Virus record (IMG/VR): IMGVR_UViG_3300025101_000044
Span: 1 to 45,903 of that record
Length of the DNA: 45,903 nucleotides
Reading direction: 5' to 3' (one strand)
From: a virus
Shown here: piece after piece, positions 2,100-39,774 of the stretch
Position numbering within the stretch: the stretch's first letter is position 1
Layout of the letters: the number at the start of each line of letters is the position of its first letter
The notes under the pieces: model-generated
The model's input: the letters and a program-made list of their open reading frames with translations, nothing else
What the model was told of the DNA's origin: nothing
The model's database searches: none
Made by a program: the position numbers and the translations under genes

Positions 2100-4085
2100 A
2101 TGGTAAATAAAGACATATTTTTAGGAAGTGGAGCAAGTTTAAACCTTGTTCCGGAATTAGATTTTAGAATTAAAAGTGCGGCTAATCCACAAGCAGGACA
2201 TACTTCTGTTGATTTACATTCGGATATGGCGCATTTTAGTTTATTAACTAACTTATATGAAGGTTCAATGTTAGAATTTTATTCAACCGCAGGAACGACT
2301 AATGTTGCTGAAATAACAACTCTTACTCTCTCAAGTGATACTAAAACAGATTATAATGGAGACTACTTAATATTTACAGTTTTAGCAAATAATGGTAATG
2401 CTTCAACTCATGCTATTTGGTTTGATGTAGGAGGTAGCGATACCGAACCAACACCTTCTGCAAATGCCGGAGGTAGCACAGAAATTCCTATTAGTGATGC
2501 AGGAATAACAACAAAAGAAGAAATTGCGGCTTTGGTCGCTAATGCTATTAATGCAGTTTCTAATGTTAGTGCAGTTAGAAATGGTGCAGTAATAACAATA
2601 ACTAATACTAATGGTGGTAATAATTCAGCCGCAACAACTACAACAGATAATGCAAATTTAACTGTTGTTAGAACACAAGCAGGGGCGCAAATCACTACGG
2701 CCGGTGCTTTGGTTTCAACTCATAGAGTAACTTCTAATACTGCTACACAAATTAAATTTACTCCTGCTTTAAGTGAAGGAACGGCTAATCATTACTTTGT
2801 TCTAAAAGCATACGGTTCTCCATTACCTGCTCCTAAGAACGGCACAGATAAGAGACTACTTGCTGACAATTGGTTGGGTCTATTAGAAACAGGAACTTTC
2901 CCTAATGTTGAGGTTGAAATGAAACAAATGAATCTATCTTTAGGTGGCTCAAGAAATTGGACTTATCAATACAAAGGAACTGAAAACGCAACAGGTGGAA
3001 GTTTGGCTTTTGTTCTTACCCACCCGACTTGGTTTTATTATTTCTTAGGTGCTTGTTCTAACTTTCAAAAGGGAGATGGTTCTACTTTTTCAGGAAGTTC
3101 TGCGGCCTTATCCGATTTATTAACCACAAGTGCATCAGGTAGTAATAATAAATTCTTAATTGATGCTTCGGGTCATTTTGCTCAAGGGCCAATTATTTAC
3201 AGAACAGTCGCAGATAAAATTGTTCCTCCATTAATGGAAGGAGACGCAACAGGAAATATGGATATAGTGCCTGTTCCTACGGCTTCCGGAAGTAATGGTG
3301 TAAATTTGTTTAGATATACCTTTAGCGAAGTTGAAGGAGATATTCTTCCTTCATTCGCTTTGGAACAAAGCATTAGTAAGTTAGATGGTGCAGTTTCTAA
3401 TCATTATAAAACCGGAACAGATGCTCTTGAAGATAATAACTTTGTTAGAATCGCAAGAGGAAATATGGTGAACGATATTAGTTTAACCGCTAATGAAAAT
3501 GAAGAAGTTAAAATGACCATGAATCTAAACACAAGAAATGTTCATCTGCCAAATACTGATGCAGTATATGAAGCAAGAAACGGCCAAGCCACTAATACAT
3601 CTTTAATAAATTATAATACGGAACAAGAATCCTTTAACGAACCTTACTTTTATTCCGGTGGAAGTTTCTCAATCTTTGGCGAAAACTTCTTGAAGATAAC
3701 AAGTTTTACTTTGAATATGAATAACTCATTAGAAGATAAGAGATTCTTAGGTTCTCAAAGTAAATCCATAAAAGATGCTATACCTGCTCAAAGAACCTAT
3801 GAAATTAGTTTTACTGCTATGATTACTGACAACAGACTTTTTAGAGAATTATTAGACAATACAGATTCAGCAGAACAAGCGGCAGGAACAAATAATATTG
3901 TTTTGACCTTTGCTAAACAAGGAAACCCCGATGAAAACTTTACAATTACTTTAACAGATTATCTCTTAAGTTCTGCTAATGTTACTATTCCCGATAATAA
4001 GGGTGCGGTAACAATTGAAGCAACAGTTATGCCGAGAAAATGTTCAAGCATTGTTGCTAATACTAATTGGATTTTACAAGGGTGA
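2100..4085 (+). CDS. Major tail tube protein with inserted domain
   Basis: 661 residues starting at ATG 2100, preceded by GGGGAGAGATAAG. It lies directly before the tail chaperone and tape measure genes, where tailed viruses encode the tail tube subunit. It is longer than typical tube proteins. A Thr/Asn/Gly-rich block at about residues 70-215 looks like an inserted surface domain. The remainder is beta-rich, with helical segments such as TGTDALEDNNFVRIARGN. The C-terminus (VTIPDNKGAVTIEATVMPRK) looks like a closing beta strand. Identity is by position and composition. A sheath protein is less likely because no contractile-tail genes are seen. Confidence 0.55.
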   Translation: MVNKDIFLGSGASLNLVPELDFRIKSAANPQAGHTSVDLHSDMAHFSLLTNLYEGSMLEFYSTAGTTNVAEITTLTLSSDTKTDYNGDYLIFTVLANNGNASTHAIWFDVGGSDTEPTPSANAGGSTEIPISDAGITTKEEIAALVANAINAVSNVSAVRNGAVITITNTNGGNNSAATTTTDNANLTVVRTQAGAQITTAGALVSTHRVTSNTATQIKFTPALSEGTANHYFVLKAYGSPLPAPKNGTDKRLLADNWLGLLETGTFPNVEVEMKQMNLSLGGSRNWTYQYKGTENATGGSLAFVLTHPTWFYYFLGACSNFQKGDGSTFSGSSAALSDLLTTSASGSNNKFLIDASGHFAQGPIIYRTVADKIVPPLMEGDATGNMDIVPVPTASGSNGVNLFRYTFSEVEGDILPSFALEQSISKLDGAVSNHYKTGTDALEDNNFVRIARGNMVNDISLTANENEEVKMTMNLNTRNVHLPNTDAVYEARNGQATNTSLINYNTEQESFNEPYFYSGGSFSIFGENFLKITSFTLNMNNSLEDKRFLGSQSKSIKDAIPAQRTYEISFTAMITDNRLFRELLDNTDSAEQAAGTNNIVLTFAKQGNPDENFTITLTDYLLSSANVTIPDNKGAVTIEATVMPRKCSSIVANTNWILQG

Positions 4086-4090
4086 TTTAC

Positions 4091-4201
4091 ATGGGTAAAG
4101 GCCATACTCTAAGAGAGAAACTAAGAATGTTTCAAGAAAAAAAGGTTGAAGAACCTAAACCTAAACCTAAAAGAAAAAGAAAATCTAAATTAGAAAAGTA
4201 A
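4091..4201 (+). CDS. Tiny lysine/arginine-rich protein
   Basis: 36 residues beginning MGKGHTLREKLRMFQEKK and ending with a run of alternating Lys-Pro and Lys-Arg. The start is 5 bases after the tail tube stop, and the site GGTGATTTAC precedes the ATG. The strongly basic C-terminus could bind nucleic acid or an acidic virion surface. No family is recognised. Real-gene status rests on the ribosome binding site and snug spacing. Confidence 0.5.
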   Translation: MGKGHTLREKLRMFQEKKVEEPKPKPKRKRKSKLEK

Positions 4202-4250: not shown

Positions 4251-4613
4251 ATGGATAAAAAAATAGTAAGTGATAAGTCGGTGCTTTTTGCACTACAAGA
4301 GCCTAAGATGCACTATATTAAAGTTGCAGAAGATAAAGAAGAATACCTCAAGATTTGGGTCAAAGAACCAACTTGGCTTGAGGTTGATAAAGCGATGAAT
4401 AGCATGATGAAAATTGATGCTAAGAATCAAGACATGAATATTGATTTGAATGCCATGTTTAAATTTATGGTTGAAAATTTTGTGGTTAAAACAGAACCGC
4501 ATCTTTCAGCAATTGACATTCTAAGATTAACTCCTTATGTGGGTAATCAACTAAAGGAAATATTACCTAATCCTTTTACAACGCTTGAAGGTGATGAAGA
4601 AAAAAACGAATAA
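4251..4613 (+). CDS. Tail assembly chaperone, short form (G-like)
   Basis: 120 residues from ATG 4251, preceded by AAGGTGGATAAC. Acidic and mostly helical, it lies just upstream of the tape measure gene, as the lambda G gene does. It ends in a Glu/Lys/Asn tail encoded over the slippery heptamer A AAA AAC at 4601-4607, in the correct phase for -1 slippage. Slippage would join it to the next frame and give a fusion of about 196 residues (4251-4840), equivalent to lambda gpGT. Such proteins coat the tape measure during tail assembly and are absent from the finished virion. The role is inferred from order plus frameshift site. Confidence 0.75.
   Translation: MDKKIVSDKSVLFALQEPKMHYIKVAEDKEEYLKIWVKEPTWLEVDKAMNSMMKIDAKNQDMNIDLNAMFKFMVENFVVKTEPHLSAIDILRLTPYVGNQLKEILPNPFTTLEGDEEKNE
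4587..4607 (+). promoter_or_regulatory. Programmed -1 ribosomal frameshift site
   Basis: The heptamer A AAA AAC (4601-4607) has zero-frame codons AAA AAC, the classic X XXY YYZ arrangement. After a -1 slip, reading continues CGA ATA ATG into the frame of the 4613-4840 gene with no intervening stop. A Shine-Dalgarno-like GAAGGTGAT at 4587-4595 sits 5 bases upstream, comparable to the stimulatory element of E. coli dnaX. A GGGG...CCCC pairing about 25-45 bases downstream could add a weak stem. Confidence 0.75.
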
Positions 4614-4840
4614 TGAGAGAAGTTATTAGGGGAAAAAGACATGACCCCAAACGACTTTCTCTCGTTATTGTTTATACTCTCGCTAAAGCCTTAGCGATTA
4701 GCCCATTAGAGATTTATAGGATGCCAGCGAGTTTAGTAAGCGATTTGCTTATAATCCACAGCGAGATAGAAACAATCAAGGCGGAAGAAATAGAGAAGAT
4801 TAGTTCCGACTCGCAATCAAAATTACAAAGTCTTAGGTGA
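4613..4840 (+). CDS. Tail assembly chaperone, frameshift extension (T-like)
   Basis: 75 residues if started at ATG 4613, which overlaps the preceding stop as TAATG. It has no well-spaced ribosome binding site of its own, which suggests it is mainly made as the C-terminal part of the -1 frameshift product. It begins basic (MREVIRGKRHDPKRLS), followed by helices and a Glu/Lys-rich end. In lambda-like systems this part binds the tape measure protein. Independent initiation by coupling remains possible. Confidence 0.7.
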   Translation: MREVIRGKRHDPKRLSLVIVYTLAKALAISPLEIYRMPASLVSDLLIIHSEIETIKAEEIEKISSDSQSKLQSLR

Positions 4841-4845
4841 ATTTT

Positions 4846-6768
4846 ATGACTGAACAAGTGCCGCTTCCTCAAATTACAAAAAAGGTTGCTACGCTTAAAA
4901 AAGAAGTTAAGTCCTTTGAAAGCCAAATATTGGCTTTAATGAAAACTCAAAACAATTACTTAAGGTCTTTAGACAAGGTAATTAAAAAAGAAAAAGAAGA
5001 AATTAATTTAAAAAAATTAAATAAAAAAGAATTAAGAGAACAAGTAGAATTAGTTAAAGGGTTTTCAACAAGGACTAAAATACAAACAGCCGTTCAAAAA
5101 ATGAATAATAATGAATTTAATTTAGGAATTAAGACTCTTTTAGATTATAGAAAGGCTGGTGGAACGACTTTTGAGTATTTAGCGACATTTATGACTTCTA
5201 CTAAAGAAGAAGTCCAAATATTAGGTTTTCATGCAAGTGCGGCAAGAAGAGTTCTTTATGGGTTTTTTCCGCCCGGAATGTTTAGAATCGTTAATAAATT
5301 AGCAACGGGATTAAATACATTAGGTGGCGGTTATAGGTCAATAAAGAAAATGATTCAAGAAGCGGGAGATGCGACAAAAACCAGTAATAATATCTTTACA
5401 TCTTCTTTTAAACTTCTTAGCAAACTTAATGTCGGAAAAGCAACTAAAAAAGCCTTTACTATTTTTGGTTCAGATAAAGAATTAAAAGATGCTCAAGATA
5501 AACTTTTTAATTTAACTAAAGCAAATAAAGCGGCTCAAAAAGAACTTAGAGATATGGAAAAATCTGCTAAAAATAACTTTGAACTTCTCAATTCTCCTGC
5601 TTATAAAAAAGAAAGAAGAGAAAAGAAAAAGAAAGCAGGGGAAGCAAGGTCAGCGATGACGAAACAAAAAAAGGTTGTAGAAGGAATACAAGAAGATGGA
5701 ATGGGTAGTGGTCTTAAAGGCTTTTTTTCAAGATTTGGAAAATCTATGAATCCCTTTGGGAAGGATAAAGGCGGTGGAATACTTAACAGAAGAAACATAA
5801 AAAAACTTTGGAATAGTAAAGCGATGAAAAAAGTTGGTAGAGGATTAAATATGTTTTTTTCAAAGAAAGGTATTTTTGGTCTTAAGAATTGGTTTAGAGT
5901 AGGAATAATGGTATTAAAGTCTCCATTCAAATTGGTAGGAAAAGCCTTCGGTTTAATTAAAATGGTATTTAGACCAATGATGACATTTTTAGTAATGACA
6001 ATAGTTTATATTTCTATAATTTCTCTAATAGTGGTTTTTATGTCAAAAACAATAGGGGAAGCGTGGAAATTTACTAAATCAGTTGTTGCTCCATTTATAG
6101 CAATAATGGTAAATGCATTAGCAAGTATTTGGGATGGAATTAAAGAAGTATTTTCAGGAATAGTAAATGGTGATTTGTGGCAAATAATAAATGGAGTGTT
6201 AGATATTGCTATCGGTGTTGTTCAGTTTGTTATAGGTTTGGCCTTGACTGTCGTTATAGGATTAGGAACATTAGTTTTAAAAATGGCTCATGTTGGTGCA
6301 AAAAAATTATTCAAATTTGTTAAGGGCATATTTACAGGTGCAGTAGATATTAAAAAGAATGCTGGTAAAATTCTAATGCTTGTTGCCGTAGTAGTTGCTT
6401 TAATCTTTGGTTGGCCTGTTGCTTTAGGTCTATTAATAATAGGTTTAGTTCCATTAATAGTAAAGAAACTATATAATAAATTTAAAGATTTATTTGATTT
6501 CTTTAGCACAGGAGGAACTGCAACAGGCGGTATGTCAGTTGTTGGAGAAAGAGGGCCGGAATTAGTTAAATTACCAATTGGCTCAAGAATTAAAAATAAC
6601 CATGTAAGTAAAAGAACCGCTTCATCAAATAGAGGCGGAAACACAATCAATATTACAATTAATGCAAAAGATACTTCCGATGCTGAAATGCGAAGAATAG
6701 CAGAAAAAGTCGGAAGATTAGTCAATAATAGTATTAATAGAAATACAGGAATGTCGGGGATAAGGTGA
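4846..6768 (+). CDS. Tail tape measure protein
   Basis: 640 residues from ATG 4846, preceded by AGGTGAATTTT. The N-terminal third is Lys/Glu-rich coiled coil. The middle is basic and helical. Several hydrophobic stretches follow between about residues 365 and 545 (for example MMTFLVMTIVYISIISLIVV and ILMLVAVVVALIFGWPVAL), typical of tape measures that enter the host membrane. Near the C-terminus the motif GERGPELVKLPIGSRI matches the widely shared tape-measure signature. Length in this family sets tail length; 640 residues would imply a fairly short tail. It follows the frameshifted chaperone pair, its expected partner. Confidence 0.9.
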   Translation: MTEQVPLPQITKKVATLKKEVKSFESQILALMKTQNNYLRSLDKVIKKEKEEINLKKLNKKELREQVELVKGFSTRTKIQTAVQKMNNNEFNLGIKTLLDYRKAGGTTFEYLATFMTSTKEEVQILGFHASAARRVLYGFFPPGMFRIVNKLATGLNTLGGGYRSIKKMIQEAGDATKTSNNIFTSSFKLLSKLNVGKATKKAFTIFGSDKELKDAQDKLFNLTKANKAAQKELRDMEKSAKNNFELLNSPAYKKERREKKKKAGEARSAMTKQKKVVEGIQEDGMGSGLKGFFSRFGKSMNPFGKDKGGGILNRRNIKKLWNSKAMKKVGRGLNMFFSKKGIFGLKNWFRVGIMVLKSPFKLVGKAFGLIKMVFRPMMTFLVMTIVYISIISLIVVFMSKTIGEAWKFTKSVVAPFIAIMVNALASIWDGIKEVFSGIVNGDLWQIINGVLDIAIGVVQFVIGLALTVVIGLGTLVLKMAHVGAKKLFKFVKGIFTGAVDIKKNAGKILMLVAVVVALIFGWPVALGLLIIGLVPLIVKKLYNKFKDLFDFFSTGGTATGGMSVVGERGPELVKLPIGSRIKNNHVSKRTASSNRGGNTINITINAKDTSDAEMRRIAEKVGRLVNNSINRNTGMSGIR

Positions 6769-23376: not shown

Positions 23377-24306
23377 TCAACCCCATGTATCTTCTTGTGC
23401 CGCAGGACAAATACCAAAATAAGTGCATTCAGCACACATCTTGTAAAAGAAATTTGGTGTAAATTCTTGTATTTCATACGCTTTTATTAGTTTAGCAATA
23501 TTTAATTTGACAGAAGTCATAGACCTTTTCTTTACTTCTTCGACTGTAATATGATTAGCCGCAGGATAATACCAACCCCAATGAGTAACTTTCATATCTT
23601 TGTTTAAGCCATATTTAGCCAATACTTCTTCGCTACAATTCTCTATCATTAGTTGATAGAAAGCCATTTCTTGACGCATAGAGGTTGTTTTATAGTCTTT
23701 CCATCCTCCTGTTTTATATTCAAAAGGAATTAAATTACCATTCTCTATAAATATTCTATCAATAATACCTTGAAGTCTAACTGTATATGGTCTATTAAGA
23801 GTAAATTCTTGATAATTATTCCATGCTCCGCCTTTATATGGGCCAATAGGAATAACTATTTCTGTATCAAACATTCCTTCATTAACAATAGGAAGAAATT
23901 CATTTACTTTATTTTCTGCTTTTGCTTCAATAAATCTTTGTGCTTCAAATGCGGCTACATTTAATGTAATATCAAAGTAATCATCAACAGGCATTAAAGA
24001 AGTGCAATACTCTAAAATTTCACTATTGTTCATATTCTCCGCTTTCTTAATGTCAAAATCATTAAAGAAGTCTTCACGATGATTATGTAATATCGTTCCT
24101 TTACGCATGGCTTCTGTTTGGTCTTGCGGTCTTCTTTCAATATAATTAAATTGATACTTTTTAGGACACCAATTAAATGAACCTAAAGAAGATTTACTTA
24201 TCTTCAATATTGGTTTAGATGGGTCATCAAAATTTTCCCATGCCCATTTATATGTAAATTCCTGCATACTTGCTATTCTTGCTTTATATTTTTCATCTGT
24301 ATTCAA
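23377..24306 (-). CDS. Cas4/RecB-like Fe-S exonuclease
   Basis: 309 residues if begun at TTG 24306, which overlaps the polymerase stop as TTGA with GGAGG 7 bases upstream. ATG 24312 is the alternative but lies next to that site. Pattern of the PD-(D/E)XK superfamily: a first Cys in SFNWCPKKYQF, a helix with GTILHNHREDFF (Cas4 motif I), RLQGIIDRIF (catalytic Asp), PFEYKTGG (E-x-K), MRQEMAFYQLMI, and a C-terminal CAECTYFGICPA. Four cysteines suggest a 4Fe-4S cluster. It would resect DNA ends to make 3' single strands for recombination. No cas1/cas2 is nearby, so it is a viral recombination nuclease, not a CRISPR adaptation gene. Confidence 0.85.
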   Translation of the reverse strand: MNTDEKYKARIASMQEFTYKWAWENFDDPSKPILKISKSSLGSFNWCPKKYQFNYIERRPQDQTEAMRKGTILHNHREDFFNDFDIKKAENMNNSEILEYCTSLMPVDDYFDITLNVAAFEAQRFIEAKAENKVNEFLPIVNEGMFDTEIVIPIGPYKGGAWNNYQEFTLNRPYTVRLQGIIDRIFIENGNLIPFEYKTGGWKDYKTTSMRQEMAFYQLMIENCSEEVLAKYGLNKDMKVTHWGWYYPAANHITVEEVKKRSMTSVKLNIAKLIKAYEIQEFTPNFFYKMCAECTYFGICPAAQEDTWG

Positions 24307-25193
24307 AACCATTCCTCCAAACTTCTTTGTATTGTTCCCGTTCTTATTGATGTTAAATCCCATGCCATAGCACTAAAAATAGGCTCGGCCTTCTTTATTA
24401 CCTGCTCGGCATAGTGCTTGAGGTCGGGATTACAACCCTCAAATTCCTTCGCAGTTGTGCATGATATATACTCAACTATCTTTCTTTCCTTTGTTAAAGG
24501 GTGAATATAATACTCACTATTGTTTAATACTTTCATAAAGATATATGAATCATCAAATTCAGTATCTTTACTCCAAGCATAAATAACTCCTGCGATACCC
24601 GAACCTATTGTTGGTTTTTTACCTTCAAGAGTTGTGAATTTCTTTGTATGTGTAGCGCATTTACTACATACAGAATGCTCTAATTCTAAACATTCTTTTA
24701 GATGATATTTAGTATTACAATCCGGACATTTAACCATGAGTCTATTAGTTCTCAATCTACTTCTTTTAATAAGAGGCGTTAATCCTAAATTACCATCTAA
24801 AACATCTGCATATTTATTATGTAGATATTGAACTATTTGTGCTTGTGAATTTTGGTTCACCCACATTTTCAATACATCTGTTTGAACTTCTTTAGCCAAC
24901 TTAGTTTCACTAACTCTTTTGGCAGTAAATCCGGTCATGCTGAATTTAGGCTCATCAAGCCATTCTCCATCTTCCCAAGATACTAAACCTGCATTTCTGT
25001 TTCTAACAGTTCCAACACCTAACGCTGAAAAATACTTTTCAAACTCTAATACTACGGGGTGTTCATCTAATCCCATTACATTTGGAAAGTGTTCTCTTAC
25101 GCTTTCTTCTATCTTCTTGATAGCCGTCTGCGCTATTTCAACAGAATCTATTTGAACATAAATAGAATCCGTATGTCCATAAACTACTTTCAT
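24303..25193 (-). CDS. polB: B-family DNA polymerase, C-terminal half (motif C, thumb, PIP box)
   Basis: 296 residues that begin MKVVYGHTDSIYV, i.e. directly at polymerase motif C (usual YGDTDS; here the first Asp is His, the second is kept). GFTAKRVS further on matches the K-x-Y/KKRY region. A Cys cluster (CPDC and CSKC, about residues 155-180) forms an inserted zinc ribbon. The last residues QRSLEEWF are a good PCNA-interacting (PIP) box. The N-terminal half is encoded separately at 26355-27995; residues join without a gap (KELEV then KVVYGHTDS). Both must assemble for activity. GGAGG inside the PIP-box codons is the binding site for the next gene. Confidence 0.9.
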   Translation of the reverse strand: MKVVYGHTDSIYVQIDSVEIAQTAIKKIEESVREHFPNVMGLDEHPVVLEFEKYFSALGVGTVRNRNAGLVSWEDGEWLDEPKFSMTGFTAKRVSETKLAKEVQTDVLKMWVNQNSQAQIVQYLHNKYADVLDGNLGLTPLIKRSRLRTNRLMVKCPDCNTKYHLKECLELEHSVCSKCATHTKKFTTLEGKKPTIGSGIAGVIYAWSKDTEFDDSYIFMKVLNNSEYYIHPLTKERKIVEYISCTTAKEFEGCNPDLKHYAEQVIKKAEPIFSAMAWDLTSIRTGTIQRSLEEWF

Positions 25194-26203: not shown

Positions 26204-26355
26204 ATTTCCAACTCCTTTTTTGGTTTCACTTTATTTATTAACATGATAAGTCCATACTCTACACAATCCCTGCATACCCACCATAACTTATTTCCTAAAC
26301 TAAACTCATCTAAATATTCATATTCGCTACAAATTTCACATTTACTCATTCCCAT
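26200..26355 (-). CDS. Zinc-ribbon miniprotein directly after PolB N-terminal half
   Basis: 51 residues with CEIC and CRDC pairs. The start ATG 26355 shares a base with the polymerase stop (TAATG); ATG 26349 is an alternative. Its last codons repeat those of the polymerase N-half: AAGGAGTTGGAA, encoding KELE, occurs at both gene ends. This suggests the gene entered by recombination at a short homology that carries the ribosome binding site. Confidence 0.55.
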   Translation of the reverse strand: MGMSKCEICSEYEYLDEFSLGNKLWWVCRDCVEYGLIMLINKVKPKKELEI

Positions 26356-26372
26356 TATACTTCCAACTCCTT
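26206..26372. repeat. 12-bp direct repeat pair flanking the 26200-26355 gene
   Basis: TTCCAACTCCTT (+ strand) occurs at 26206-26217 and 26361-26372, near both ends of one miniprotein gene. On the coding strand it reads AAGGAGTTGGAA: the ribosome binding site plus codons for KELE of the preceding protein. Confidence 0.6.
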
Positions 26373-27995
26373 CGCCTTAAATGCGGCTAATCTAATAGCC
26401 TCTCTTGCACTTGCCGTTATAGAAGCCGCTAAATTAACATTAGCCCAACCAAAGCCTTGAAAGGCAATAATTCCGTAAAATGAAGCCATTAAACGCTTTA
26501 CTGCCATTTGATTATTATACCATTTTTGATACTCGCCACTATCATTAGAGGCTTTCATTCTTTTCTTATAGTCATTTCTTAACTCTTTTAATTCTAATAC
26601 TGCTCTTGGTAATAGTCCTAATTCATCTGTTTTAAAATACAACATATGTTTCTTTTCGACGGGGCTAAAATCTCTTGGTGTTAGAATATTAACTGCAAAT
26701 TCTGTTGGTTCTTCACTAATTGTTTCCCAAGATATATTTCTTGCTATCATCATTGAAGGATATAGACCTGCAAAATCAAAAGCAGCAACATTAAGATGTA
26801 ATCCTTGAGTTTGTTCACTTAATGGGTCATATATCATAGCCCCTTCATAAGTTTCTCTTTTCTCTACTTTACTTCCGGTCTTACATTTCCACCAAGCATT
26901 TCTCATAAAGTAAATACTTCCCATATGAGAAGCATAGAAACAAGCATCAAATGGTGCTTTTAGTAATCTTTGTAGTGATAGTATTGCTTCACTACAATAA
27001 TTCATTTCATCTATCTCAACTATCAACTTTACATCTTGTAAAGCATAATCAAGATAAGTTTCTGTATCTTCTAACCAAGCCCTACGATAAAATTCATTTG
27101 TGTCGGGAAACTTCTCCGAGACGAGTTTGTTCTTGTTCAAAACTGTTTCACCAATATAATTAAGAGACAAAGAAGGTAATGTTCCTCTTTGTGAATCATT
27201 CCATTGTCTTTCAAATGCTAAATCTAAAGATAAAGTAATTCTTCCATTAATAGGTTGTTCAATAGGACTAAAGCCCTTTTCACCATAAGCAAAGGAAAAA
27301 CTATCTTTCTTTTTCTTAATACCTTTAATGTGTCCTGTTGGCGACATTATTTGTGGATTAAGACCAAGAGCGCAGGTTCTTTCTAATAACTTAGGAATAT
27401 CTGCAAAATGACCGAACCATGCAATTAACATATCGGGGTCTTTTACAACCATAGTTGTCATAAAGTTTTCAAGCATATCTTTTTCATTAGTAAAAAAATA
27501 CTGATGTGCTGAATCACATAGAACATTATCTTTAGGAAACCACGCCCATTGATAGTATTGCTTATCATAATTATCATACACTACAATGGTAGTAATTTCA
27601 TCATGATGTTCTCCGCCTTGTTGCCATTCCATATCCCAATACCATTTACGCATTTTATACTCCGGCATTTCTTTTATTTCATCAACCGCATATCTAAAGT
27701 GAAAAGGCACATCAGCCTCATAGGTTTTCTTGAACATATCTTTAGCCTTTTTAATATCAAAAGAAGTATCAACTACAACTTTCTTCAACGGCTCATTATC
27801 AATATTAACCCAATCACCACGAATATACTCAAAGTCTCTATCAATATACTTTGATGCCTTATACTTGGAAGGTTCTTTCTCATCTTCTTTAACATAAAAA
27901 TAAGGTTTAACTTCCACCATTTCAAACTTCTTTTCACCGTTCTCTCTCCAAGATTTATAGATTCTTTTACCATCATTCATCTTACTTATTATCAT
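26355..27995 (-). CDS. polB: B-family DNA polymerase, N-terminal half (exonuclease, palm motifs A and B)
   Basis: 546 residues. Exonuclease motifs: WYWDMEWQ (Asp121, Glu123), WFGHFADI (Asp199, with Gly-His where the family usually has Asn) and YLDYALQD (Tyr317, Asp321). Polymerase motif A is FDFAGLYPSMM (Asp407, Tyr412); motif B is AVKRLMASFYG (Lys500, Tyr507). The chain then stops after KELEV, one or two residues before where motif C should begin. Motif C and thumb are in the separate gene at 24303-25193. The halves add up to 842 residues, normal for PolB. This half alone lacks a catalytic Asp and should be inactive. The clamp gene lies just upstream. Confidence 0.9.
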   Translation of the reverse strand: MIISKMNDGKRIYKSWRENGEKKFEMVEVKPYFYVKEDEKEPSKYKASKYIDRDFEYIRGDWVNIDNEPLKKVVVDTSFDIKKAKDMFKKTYEADVPFHFRYAVDEIKEMPEYKMRKWYWDMEWQQGGEHHDEITTIVVYDNYDKQYYQWAWFPKDNVLCDSAHQYFFTNEKDMLENFMTTMVVKDPDMLIAWFGHFADIPKLLERTCALGLNPQIMSPTGHIKGIKKKKDSFSFAYGEKGFSPIEQPINGRITLSLDLAFERQWNDSQRGTLPSLSLNYIGETVLNKNKLVSEKFPDTNEFYRRAWLEDTETYLDYALQDVKLIVEIDEMNYCSEAILSLQRLLKAPFDACFYASHMGSIYFMRNAWWKCKTGSKVEKRETYEGAMIYDPLSEQTQGLHLNVAAFDFAGLYPSMMIARNISWETISEEPTEFAVNILTPRDFSPVEKKHMLYFKTDELGLLPRAVLELKELRNDYKKRMKASNDSGEYQKWYNNQMAVKRLMASFYGIIAFQGFGWANVNLAASITASAREAIRLAAFKAKELEV

Positions 27996-38259: not shown

Positions 38260-39774
38260 TCAAGCCTCCGGTAATAATACTGCTACATCTGTCGAATAGA
38301 ATAAAGATGCTATTGATAATGCCGCTAAGAAACTATTCTTAACTACCTTATATGGGTCAAAGACTCCCGCTTCTTCTAAGTTTTCTATTTTATTAGTAAG
38401 AGCATTATAGCCCATACCGGAAGAAATATCAATTTCAAGGTTCGATGAAACATCACCACTATTCTCAATCAATGTTAGCATTGGTTGTTTTAAAGAATAT
38501 GTGAACCACTTCGGTAAAGTATCGTCTTCTGCTAATTTAGCATATAATGTTCCACCACCAACTACAATTCCTTCTTCTAATGCGGCCTTTGTAGCGTGTA
38601 AAGCATCATCGAGTCTTTCTTTAGTTTCTCGCATTTCAATAGATGAAGAAGCACCAATTCTAATTGTGGCAACTCCCCCGCTAAGTTTTGCTATTCTGTT
38701 TTTGATTCTTGCTAATTCATGTCCTTTAGTATCTTTAGCCTGTTTCTTAAGCGTTTCAATTCTATTTTGAATCTCATTCCCTTTTTCTTCATCTGTTCCA
38801 ATAAATGTAGTTGATTCTTTAGTAATAGATATTTTTTTACAAGTTCCTAACTCTAAAAGTGTGAAAACTTTAGGGTCGTCTTTGCTTTCTTCAACAAATA
38901 CTCGCCCACCTAATGCACAAGACATATCGCCTAATTCATTTATTTGTTCATCACCAAAATTAGGTGAAAGAACAACTGCACATTGAACAGTCTTTTGTAA
39001 GAGATTCATAACTAAATTATTCATGGCTGAACCATCCATTCCTTTACAGAAAATAACAAGAGGTCGGTTGTTTGCTGAACTAAATTCTAATAGTGGCATA
39101 ATATCACTAAACTTTCTAATAGAAAGATTGGACATAAACACTAATGGATTATCAAATTCAACACGGCCATTTTCAGTATTGCACATCAAATGACTTAGAT
39201 AACCTTCATTGATTTCCATACCTTTTCTAATCTCAATTTCTGTATTATAATTATTAGATTCTTCAACGGTGATAATACCGTCTCTTCCGACTTCATCAAT
39301 TGCTCCTTTGATTAGACTACCAAGATGCCTGTCATTGTTTGCTGCTATTGTAGCGACATTTAGAATATCATCGTTTTCTACTTCAACAACATGATTATCT
39401 AAATGACTAATCATAATGTCTCTCAATTCACTAATCAAGACATTAAATTCATGAATTGACATATCTTCTCCAAAATCAACCAAATTATTACAAAAAGCCT
39501 GTGCTAAAATACAAGCGGTGGTCGTTCCATCGCCTGAATTATCTTGTGCTTTACTTGCTAAGTTTTGAACTAATTGAATCCCCATTTGAACATAAGGGTC
39601 TTCATGAGAAATATACTTTGTTATTGTAACTCCGTCATTAATAATAACAGGAGGATTACCTTGCAGTATAACTGTTTTCGCTTGTGGGCCAAGTGTAGGT
39701 TTTACAGTATTAGCCACTAAATTAATTCCTTCTAATAATTTTCTTTTAACTTCAATTCTATCATTCAGTATCAT
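38260..39774 (-). CDS. groEL: Group I chaperonin (GroEL-like)
   Basis: 504 residues, slightly shorter than GroEL. Diagnostic parts: NTVKPTLGPQAKTVIL, the ATP-site GDGTTTA (81-87), RIAKLSGGVATIRIGASS, LDDALHATKAALEEGIVVGGG, and AGVFDPYKVV, all group I (bacterial type) rather than thermosome type. The C-terminal Gly-Gly-Met tail of GroEL is missing (ends LLPEA). A GroES-like gene lies 150 bases upstream, so the pair likely forms a capped folding chamber for virion proteins. ATG 39774 follows GGAGAGGAAAGA. Confidence 0.9.
   Translation of the reverse strand: MILNDRIEVKRKLLEGINLVANTVKPTLGPQAKTVILQGNPPVIINDGVTITKYISHEDPYVQMGIQLVQNLASKAQDNSGDGTTTACILAQAFCNNLVDFGEDMSIHEFNVLISELRDIMISHLDNHVVEVENDDILNVATIAANNDRHLGSLIKGAIDEVGRDGIITVEESNNYNTEIEIRKGMEINEGYLSHLMCNTENGRVEFDNPLVFMSNLSIRKFSDIMPLLEFSSANNRPLVIFCKGMDGSAMNNLVMNLLQKTVQCAVVLSPNFGDEQINELGDMSCALGGRVFVEESKDDPKVFTLLELGTCKKISITKESTTFIGTDEEKGNEIQNRIETLKKQAKDTKGHELARIKNRIAKLSGGVATIRIGASSSIEMRETKERLDDALHATKAALEEGIVVGGGTLYAKLAEDDTLPKWFTYSLKQPMLTLIENSGDVSSNLEIDISSGMGYNALTNKIENLEEAGVFDPYKVVKNSFLAALSIASLFYSTDVAVLLPEA

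Follow-up and report, generated by a model that had tools for sequence, protein, structure and literature searches.

The window analysed here is the whole 45,903-nucleotide stretch of DNA from IMG/VR record IMGVR_UViG_3300025101_000044. Between its tail tube and tape measure genes lie two overlapping reading frames. The first, or zero frame, ends with the codons GGT GAT GAA GAA AAA AAC GAA TAA; the second continues in the -1 frame as CGA ATA ATG AGA.., translated RIMREVIRGK... The features of the locus are:

2100..4085, + strand: tail tube protein gene (Pfam Phage_tube_2, E 5.3e-10)
4251..4613, + strand: zero-frame gene for a gpG-like tail assembly chaperone of 120 aa (ATG 4251, stop 4611-4613)
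4587..4595, + strand: putative SD-like stimulatory element GAAGGTGAT, with its core AGGTGAT (4589-4595) 5 nt upstream of the heptamer
4601..4607, + strand: slippery heptamer A_AAA_AAC, in the zero-frame X_XXY_YYZ phase
4607..4840, + strand: -1 frame encoding a gpT-like domain, 77 codons plus stop (4838-4840)
4609..4669, + strand: putative stimulatory stem-loop, a long irregular hairpin (MFE -23.9 kcal/mol, z -5.38)
4846..6768, + strand: tape measure protein gene, 640 aa (PHROG 19914, E 5.5e-6; also assigned by position and hydrophobic composition)

Translation across the heptamer predicts a fusion protein, gpG-T, of 196 aa. The preliminary description of this DNA had placed A AAA AAC in the exact phase for -1 slippage, with an SD-like element five bases upstream, and had predicted a junction of EEKN followed by RIM and a -1 frame that reads to just before the tape measure gene. 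The coordinates and translation bear out each of these statements; the hairpin had been overlooked. A small Lys/Pro-rich ORF of about 36 aa (4091-4201, +) lies between the tail tube and chaperone genes; a short run of TTTG repeats separates it from the latter.

Weak PHROG matches link each frame to tail assembly chaperones (E 0.003 and 0.01), and the protein models are more informative for gpG. Comparison of its AlphaFold model (pLDDT 80) with BFVD finds the Haloarcula hispanica tailed virus 2 tail assembly chaperone at E 4e-6 and TM 0.72, with the HCTV-2 chaperone as a weaker match; in the PDB, the HK97 chaperone 2ob9 is a non-significant match (E 6.5). Judged by its predicted structure, gpG is a member of the tail assembly chaperones. 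The gpT model is all-helical (pLDDT 91), with weak structural matches and no strong named one. Annotated phage records searched with gpG, and with the gpT of a relative, yielded no match. The tail tube protein has a single named relative, its counterpart in Haloarcula hispanica tailed virus 2.

The window also encodes a TFB-like zinc ribbon protein, an RFC small subunit, an ATP-dependent ligase, and an ERCC4 nuclease. PolB is split into two ORFs (24303-25193 and 26355-27995, -) with small ORFs between them, and a group I GroEL-type chaperonin (38260-39774, -) matches bacterial 60 kDa chaperonins at E 3e-91. Morphogenesis and replication modules are oppositely oriented. Opposed modules, split PolB, RFC-S, ATP ligase, TFB, and GroEL are traits of the Magrovirales, and the same gene complement, GroEL included, has been reported in Aoguangviridae, a family of magroviruses (PMC10768690); the window shares this module arrangement and gene content. 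The best named relatives of its clamp loader are haloviral. The window yielded no identifiable capsid or terminase gene, and no host CRISPR or MAG link was obtained for these contigs. The sole GTDB match among the relatives (L073; 53% identity, G_GGA_AAC) lies on a 10.5-kb contig of a Maricaulis-titled MAG; this contig is probably mis-binned viral sequence, and was therefore left out of host assignment. The window comes from a tailed virus of archaea, probably a magrovirus of marine Poseidoniales, and the archaeal attribution made in the preliminary description is supported by the sequence.

Conservation of the in-phase heptamer

By itself, the heptamer is unremarkable. The window is 33% GC, and AAAAAAC occurs 16 times versus 31 expected; the case for frameshifting therefore depends on its phase and its conservation. 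Of the 97 window ORFs, 3 combine an in-phase slippery heptamer close to their end with a -1 extension of 30 codons or more. Besides 4601-4607, one of these candidates is carried by an antisense ORF. A second candidate heptamer, A_AAA_AAG at 32719-32713 (-), lies near the end of ORF 33507-32665 and has an 85-codon -1 extension; it was set aside as probably due to chance, since the gene that follows starts at an ATG of its own, preceded by a good SD.

An initial IMG/VR search with gpG recovered 68 relatives (47-100% identity). In every one of the 68, a slippery heptamer sits in phase close to the stop, and the -1 frame past it is open for at least 62 codons. The set was extended to 197 distinct IMG/VR loci, which are not independent of one another phylogenetically. 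An in-phase X_XXY_YYZ heptamer with an open -1 gpT domain is present in 185 of them: 124 have A_AAA_AAC; 31, T_TTA_AAA; 12, A_AAA_AAG; 11, A_AAA_AAA; and 7, G_GGA_AAN. Loss of the heptamer or its phase in close relatives, which the preliminary description had named as evidence against frameshifting, was not found: the remaining 12 loci, in which gpT occupies the +1/-2 frame, keep both a slippery run and the hairpin. On a quick tree of 128 of the 197 loci, in which many branches are weak, a label combining heptamer and frame changes at least 17 times, and the heptamer types swapped are all slippery.

Codon usage was examined in 46 lineages sharing less than 93% nucleotide identity, which also served for the stimulator statistics. 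The first codon touched by the heptamer specifies E, G, A, S, Q, or D, yet the required last base is kept. Asn at the YYZ codon is AAC in 36 of 36 cases, and AAC makes up 23% of Asn codons in these genomes. The bases 3' of this AAC in the aligned relatives are always GA. With GA following, AAT at YYZ would introduce a TGA into the -1 frame immediately past the slip. Exclusive use of AAC, together with the invariant GA, therefore argues that the heptamer marks the exact point from which the -1 frame has to stay open.

One 184.7-kb contig, IMGVR_UViG_3300021958_000021, carries two different tail chaperone loci (L093 and L145), which suggests that the assembly is chimeric or joined, or that two viruses are present.

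The flanking elements

Upstream, positions -14 to -6 relative to the heptamer have the family consensus GAGGNGGAT, or a close variant, when sequences are aligned on the heptamer. Residues G-11, G-8, and A-7 are invariant in 46 of 46 lineages. Pairing was scored with a generic 16S tail, GAUCACCUCCU, which was assumed rather than derived from the host; on this basis, the best anti-SD duplex at the element averages -10.1 kcal/mol versus -3.7 for background (46 lineages). Gene starts in the window carry similar SDs (mean -7.9 versus -2.65 at random). Codon choice points the same way: within the SD-like region, Glu is encoded by GAG in 19 of 22 cases (18% in the rest of the gene) and Gly by GGG in 23 of 25 (17% in the rest of the gene). 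AGGTGAT may act on elongating ribosomes as an SD-like stimulator of frameshifting.

Downstream, the AU-rich base of the hairpin begins 1 nt past the heptamer, and its stabler part about 8 nt past. Across the 46 lineages, the 60 nt past the heptamer have a mean z of -3.68, the strongest structure within about 1 kb, and in 45 of the 46 z falls below -1.64 against synonymous shuffles that keep the -1 frame protein. Hairpins are weaker in the most divergent members (z -1.1 in L070). (A second RNA-structure peak, with mean z to -2.4 in these lineages, lies about 180-260 nt upstream of the heptamer, in the 5' part of gpG.)

RNAalifold, applied to 37 sequences, returned no consensus pairs because the pairing register of the helix drifts; the synonymous-shuffle and register-based tests were used in its place. 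In the commonest register, 69.8% of cells pair, with 45 double changes. The observed pairing, double-change cells, and covariation score were reached by none of 500 shuffles, a control that ignores relatedness among the sequences; counts of pairs and of pair types were unexceptional against 500 shuffles. An Rfam search gave sub-threshold matches only. Since the shuffles are blind to relatedness and RNAalifold finds no structure, the claim made here is for a conserved hairpin of drifting register, not for one fixed fold.

Frameshifting and its alternatives

These features very probably make up a lambda G/GT-type site of programmed -1 ribosomal frameshifting in an archaeal tailed virus, its signal built of three parts as in dnaX. 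Sequence and comparison establish the slippery site and its phase, the SD-like element, the hairpin, the -1 domain, and the gene order; we infer slippage itself, its efficiency and the resulting protein ratio, and the roles of both proteins. Most ribosomes would terminate at 4611 to release the 120-aa gpG. A minority would be held at A_AAA_AAC, with AGGTGAT paired to the tail of the 16S rRNA and the stem-loop lodged where the mRNA enters the ribosome; both tRNAs would slip back one base, re-pairing on AAA AAA, and the slipped ribosomes would read 77 further codons to make gpG-T. By analogy with lambda, gpG may coat the tape measure protein, and the rarer gpG-T may recruit the tail-tube subunit to it.

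Re-initiation offers an alternative, in which free gpT is made from ATG 4613 through stop/start coupling, without frameshifting. This ATG, unmentioned in the preliminary description, overlaps the zero-frame stop codon (TAATG) in the window and in its nearest relatives (L005-L007). Nevertheless, the first 12 gpT codons contain no ATG in 134 of the 197 loci, and no ATG, GTG, or TTG in 89. At the gpT position that ATG 4613 encodes, most relatives have I, L, V, or M, so that the position is mostly hydrophobic. Spacing also argues against this use of the ATG: no SD lies at the distance that window genes use, their best SD-like stretches mostly ending 1-8 nt ahead of the start, and the conserved element stops 17 nt short of ATG 4613. 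Moreover, the element keeps a constant distance from the heptamer, whereas the stop codon drifts by 3-24 nt among relatives. Finally, coupling leaves the conserved in-phase heptamer and hairpin unexplained. Re-initiation is therefore very unlikely as the source of gpT, though less clearly so in the window itself, where the ATG overlaps the stop.

Transcriptional slippage on the A run would generate a mixed mRNA pool, and thereby the same fusion from ribosomes that never change frame. Runs of 6-7 A at most sites would permit this, but T_TTA_AAA (31 loci) and G_GGA_AAN (7) are ribosomal slippery heptamers rather than homopolymers; the SD-like element and hairpin are stimulators of ribosomes; and in-phase placement would be unnecessary. 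This explanation we consider very improbable. Least credible of all is a chance heptamer produced by an AT-rich genome and an acidic, lysine-rich C-terminus (EEKNE): AAAAAAC is common in the window (16 copies), but heptamer codon choice given the amino acids has log10 P = -14 (46 lineages, uncorrected for ancestry), and the heptamer, swapped in places for T_TTA_AAA or G_GGA_AAN, is conserved in 185 of 197 loci.

Programmed -1 frameshifting thus remains the preferred reading for the window and for most of its relatives. The 12 loci with gpT in the +1/-2 frame (L173, L216, L217, L220, L285, L295, L311, L312, L313, L317, L373, and L374) come from several metagenomes and belong to a single broader clade, in which the 128-locus tree implies 1 to 4 frame changes. 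Their zero frame ends GAA AAA AAG GAT GAT TAR/TGA (GAC AAT TAA in L317). Eleven of the 12 have a -1 frame that shuts immediately, at GGA TGA; in L317 it is open at that point. The SD-like element and an A7G run are kept, and hairpin z ranges from -3.3 to -7.1 in the six loci tested.

This sublineage may use -2 frameshifting where its relatives use -1, with the same cis-signal serving both; we lean slightly toward this reading. A -2 slip on A7G is plausible, because both Lys tRNAs could re-pair two bases back. A +1 slip, from AAA to AAA before AGG, is possible. Re-initiation is an alternative here too, with a nearby ATG in 11 of the 12 loci, but L317, which has no start codon there, argues against a simple form of it.

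These loci provide some 200 natural variants of one compact signal in abundant ocean viruses, with all three cis-elements under visible selection. With these variants, two questions can be put to the test: do archaeal ribosomes react to an internal SD and a hairpin in the way that bacterial ribosomes do, and how does a virus shift from -1 to -2 or +1 slippage without losing its tail? For genomes of this kind, annotation should treat the tail chaperone as one joined gene.

Comparison with known systems

The preliminary description likened the locus to lambda G/GT. The gene order fits: tail tube upstream, two overlapping frames, and tape measure downstream, with a conserved in-phase heptamer and membership in the chaperone family. 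Lambda shares the -1 direction as well, and a C-terminal extension placed just before the tape measure gene. It differs in its heptamer, G_GGA_AAG, and the window would rely on the translation machinery of an archaeal host. No sequence match between the window chaperone and lambda G/GT was found.

The E. coli dnaX cassette is a parallel for the signal, although its SD lies farther from the heptamer than in the window. Both combine an upstream SD or SD-like element, an A_AAA_AAR/C heptamer, and a stem-loop just downstream (PMC5009743); in the window, however, the frameshift would act in a viral tail gene and yield the longer product. Among other phages, the tail chaperones are known to use -1, -2, or +1 frameshifts, phage Mu being a -2 case (PMC5009743). 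Mu is comparable to the 12-locus sublineage, which differs in its A7G run and archaeal-virus context.

In the literature covered, one archaeal cellular gene, Saccharolobus fucA1, has experimental proof of -1 frameshifting (PMC8211752), and the process is predicted for a few haloviruses (PMC5009743, PMC7911831, PMC7230728, PMC8211752). The earlier remark on the scarcity of documented cases in archaeal viruses is fair: those found in this literature are these halovirus predictions, one of which, the HCTV-2 tail chaperone, has the same A_AAA_AAC heptamer (PMC5009743). In the magrovirus papers found, the tail assembly chaperone is mentioned at most, with no frameshift in it.

Like the window, HCTV-2, HVTV-1, HCTV-1/-5, and Hardycor1 are archaeal tailed viruses with a -1 chaperone fusion flanked by tail tube and tape measure genes. 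HCTV-2 differs in three respects: it has no strong SD-like element (-4.0 kcal/mol versus -10.0 in the window); it has no downstream hairpin (z +0.5 versus -4.9 in the window, over the same 60 nt); and its second domain has about double the length of the window gpT. Because HCTV-2 lacks a strong SD or hairpin, archaeal viruses do not share the three-part signal as a rule. The kind of frameshift, including the same heptamer in HCTV-2, is therefore known already; what is new is its occurrence in this virus group, the conserved stimulators, and the 12-locus +1/-2 sublineage.
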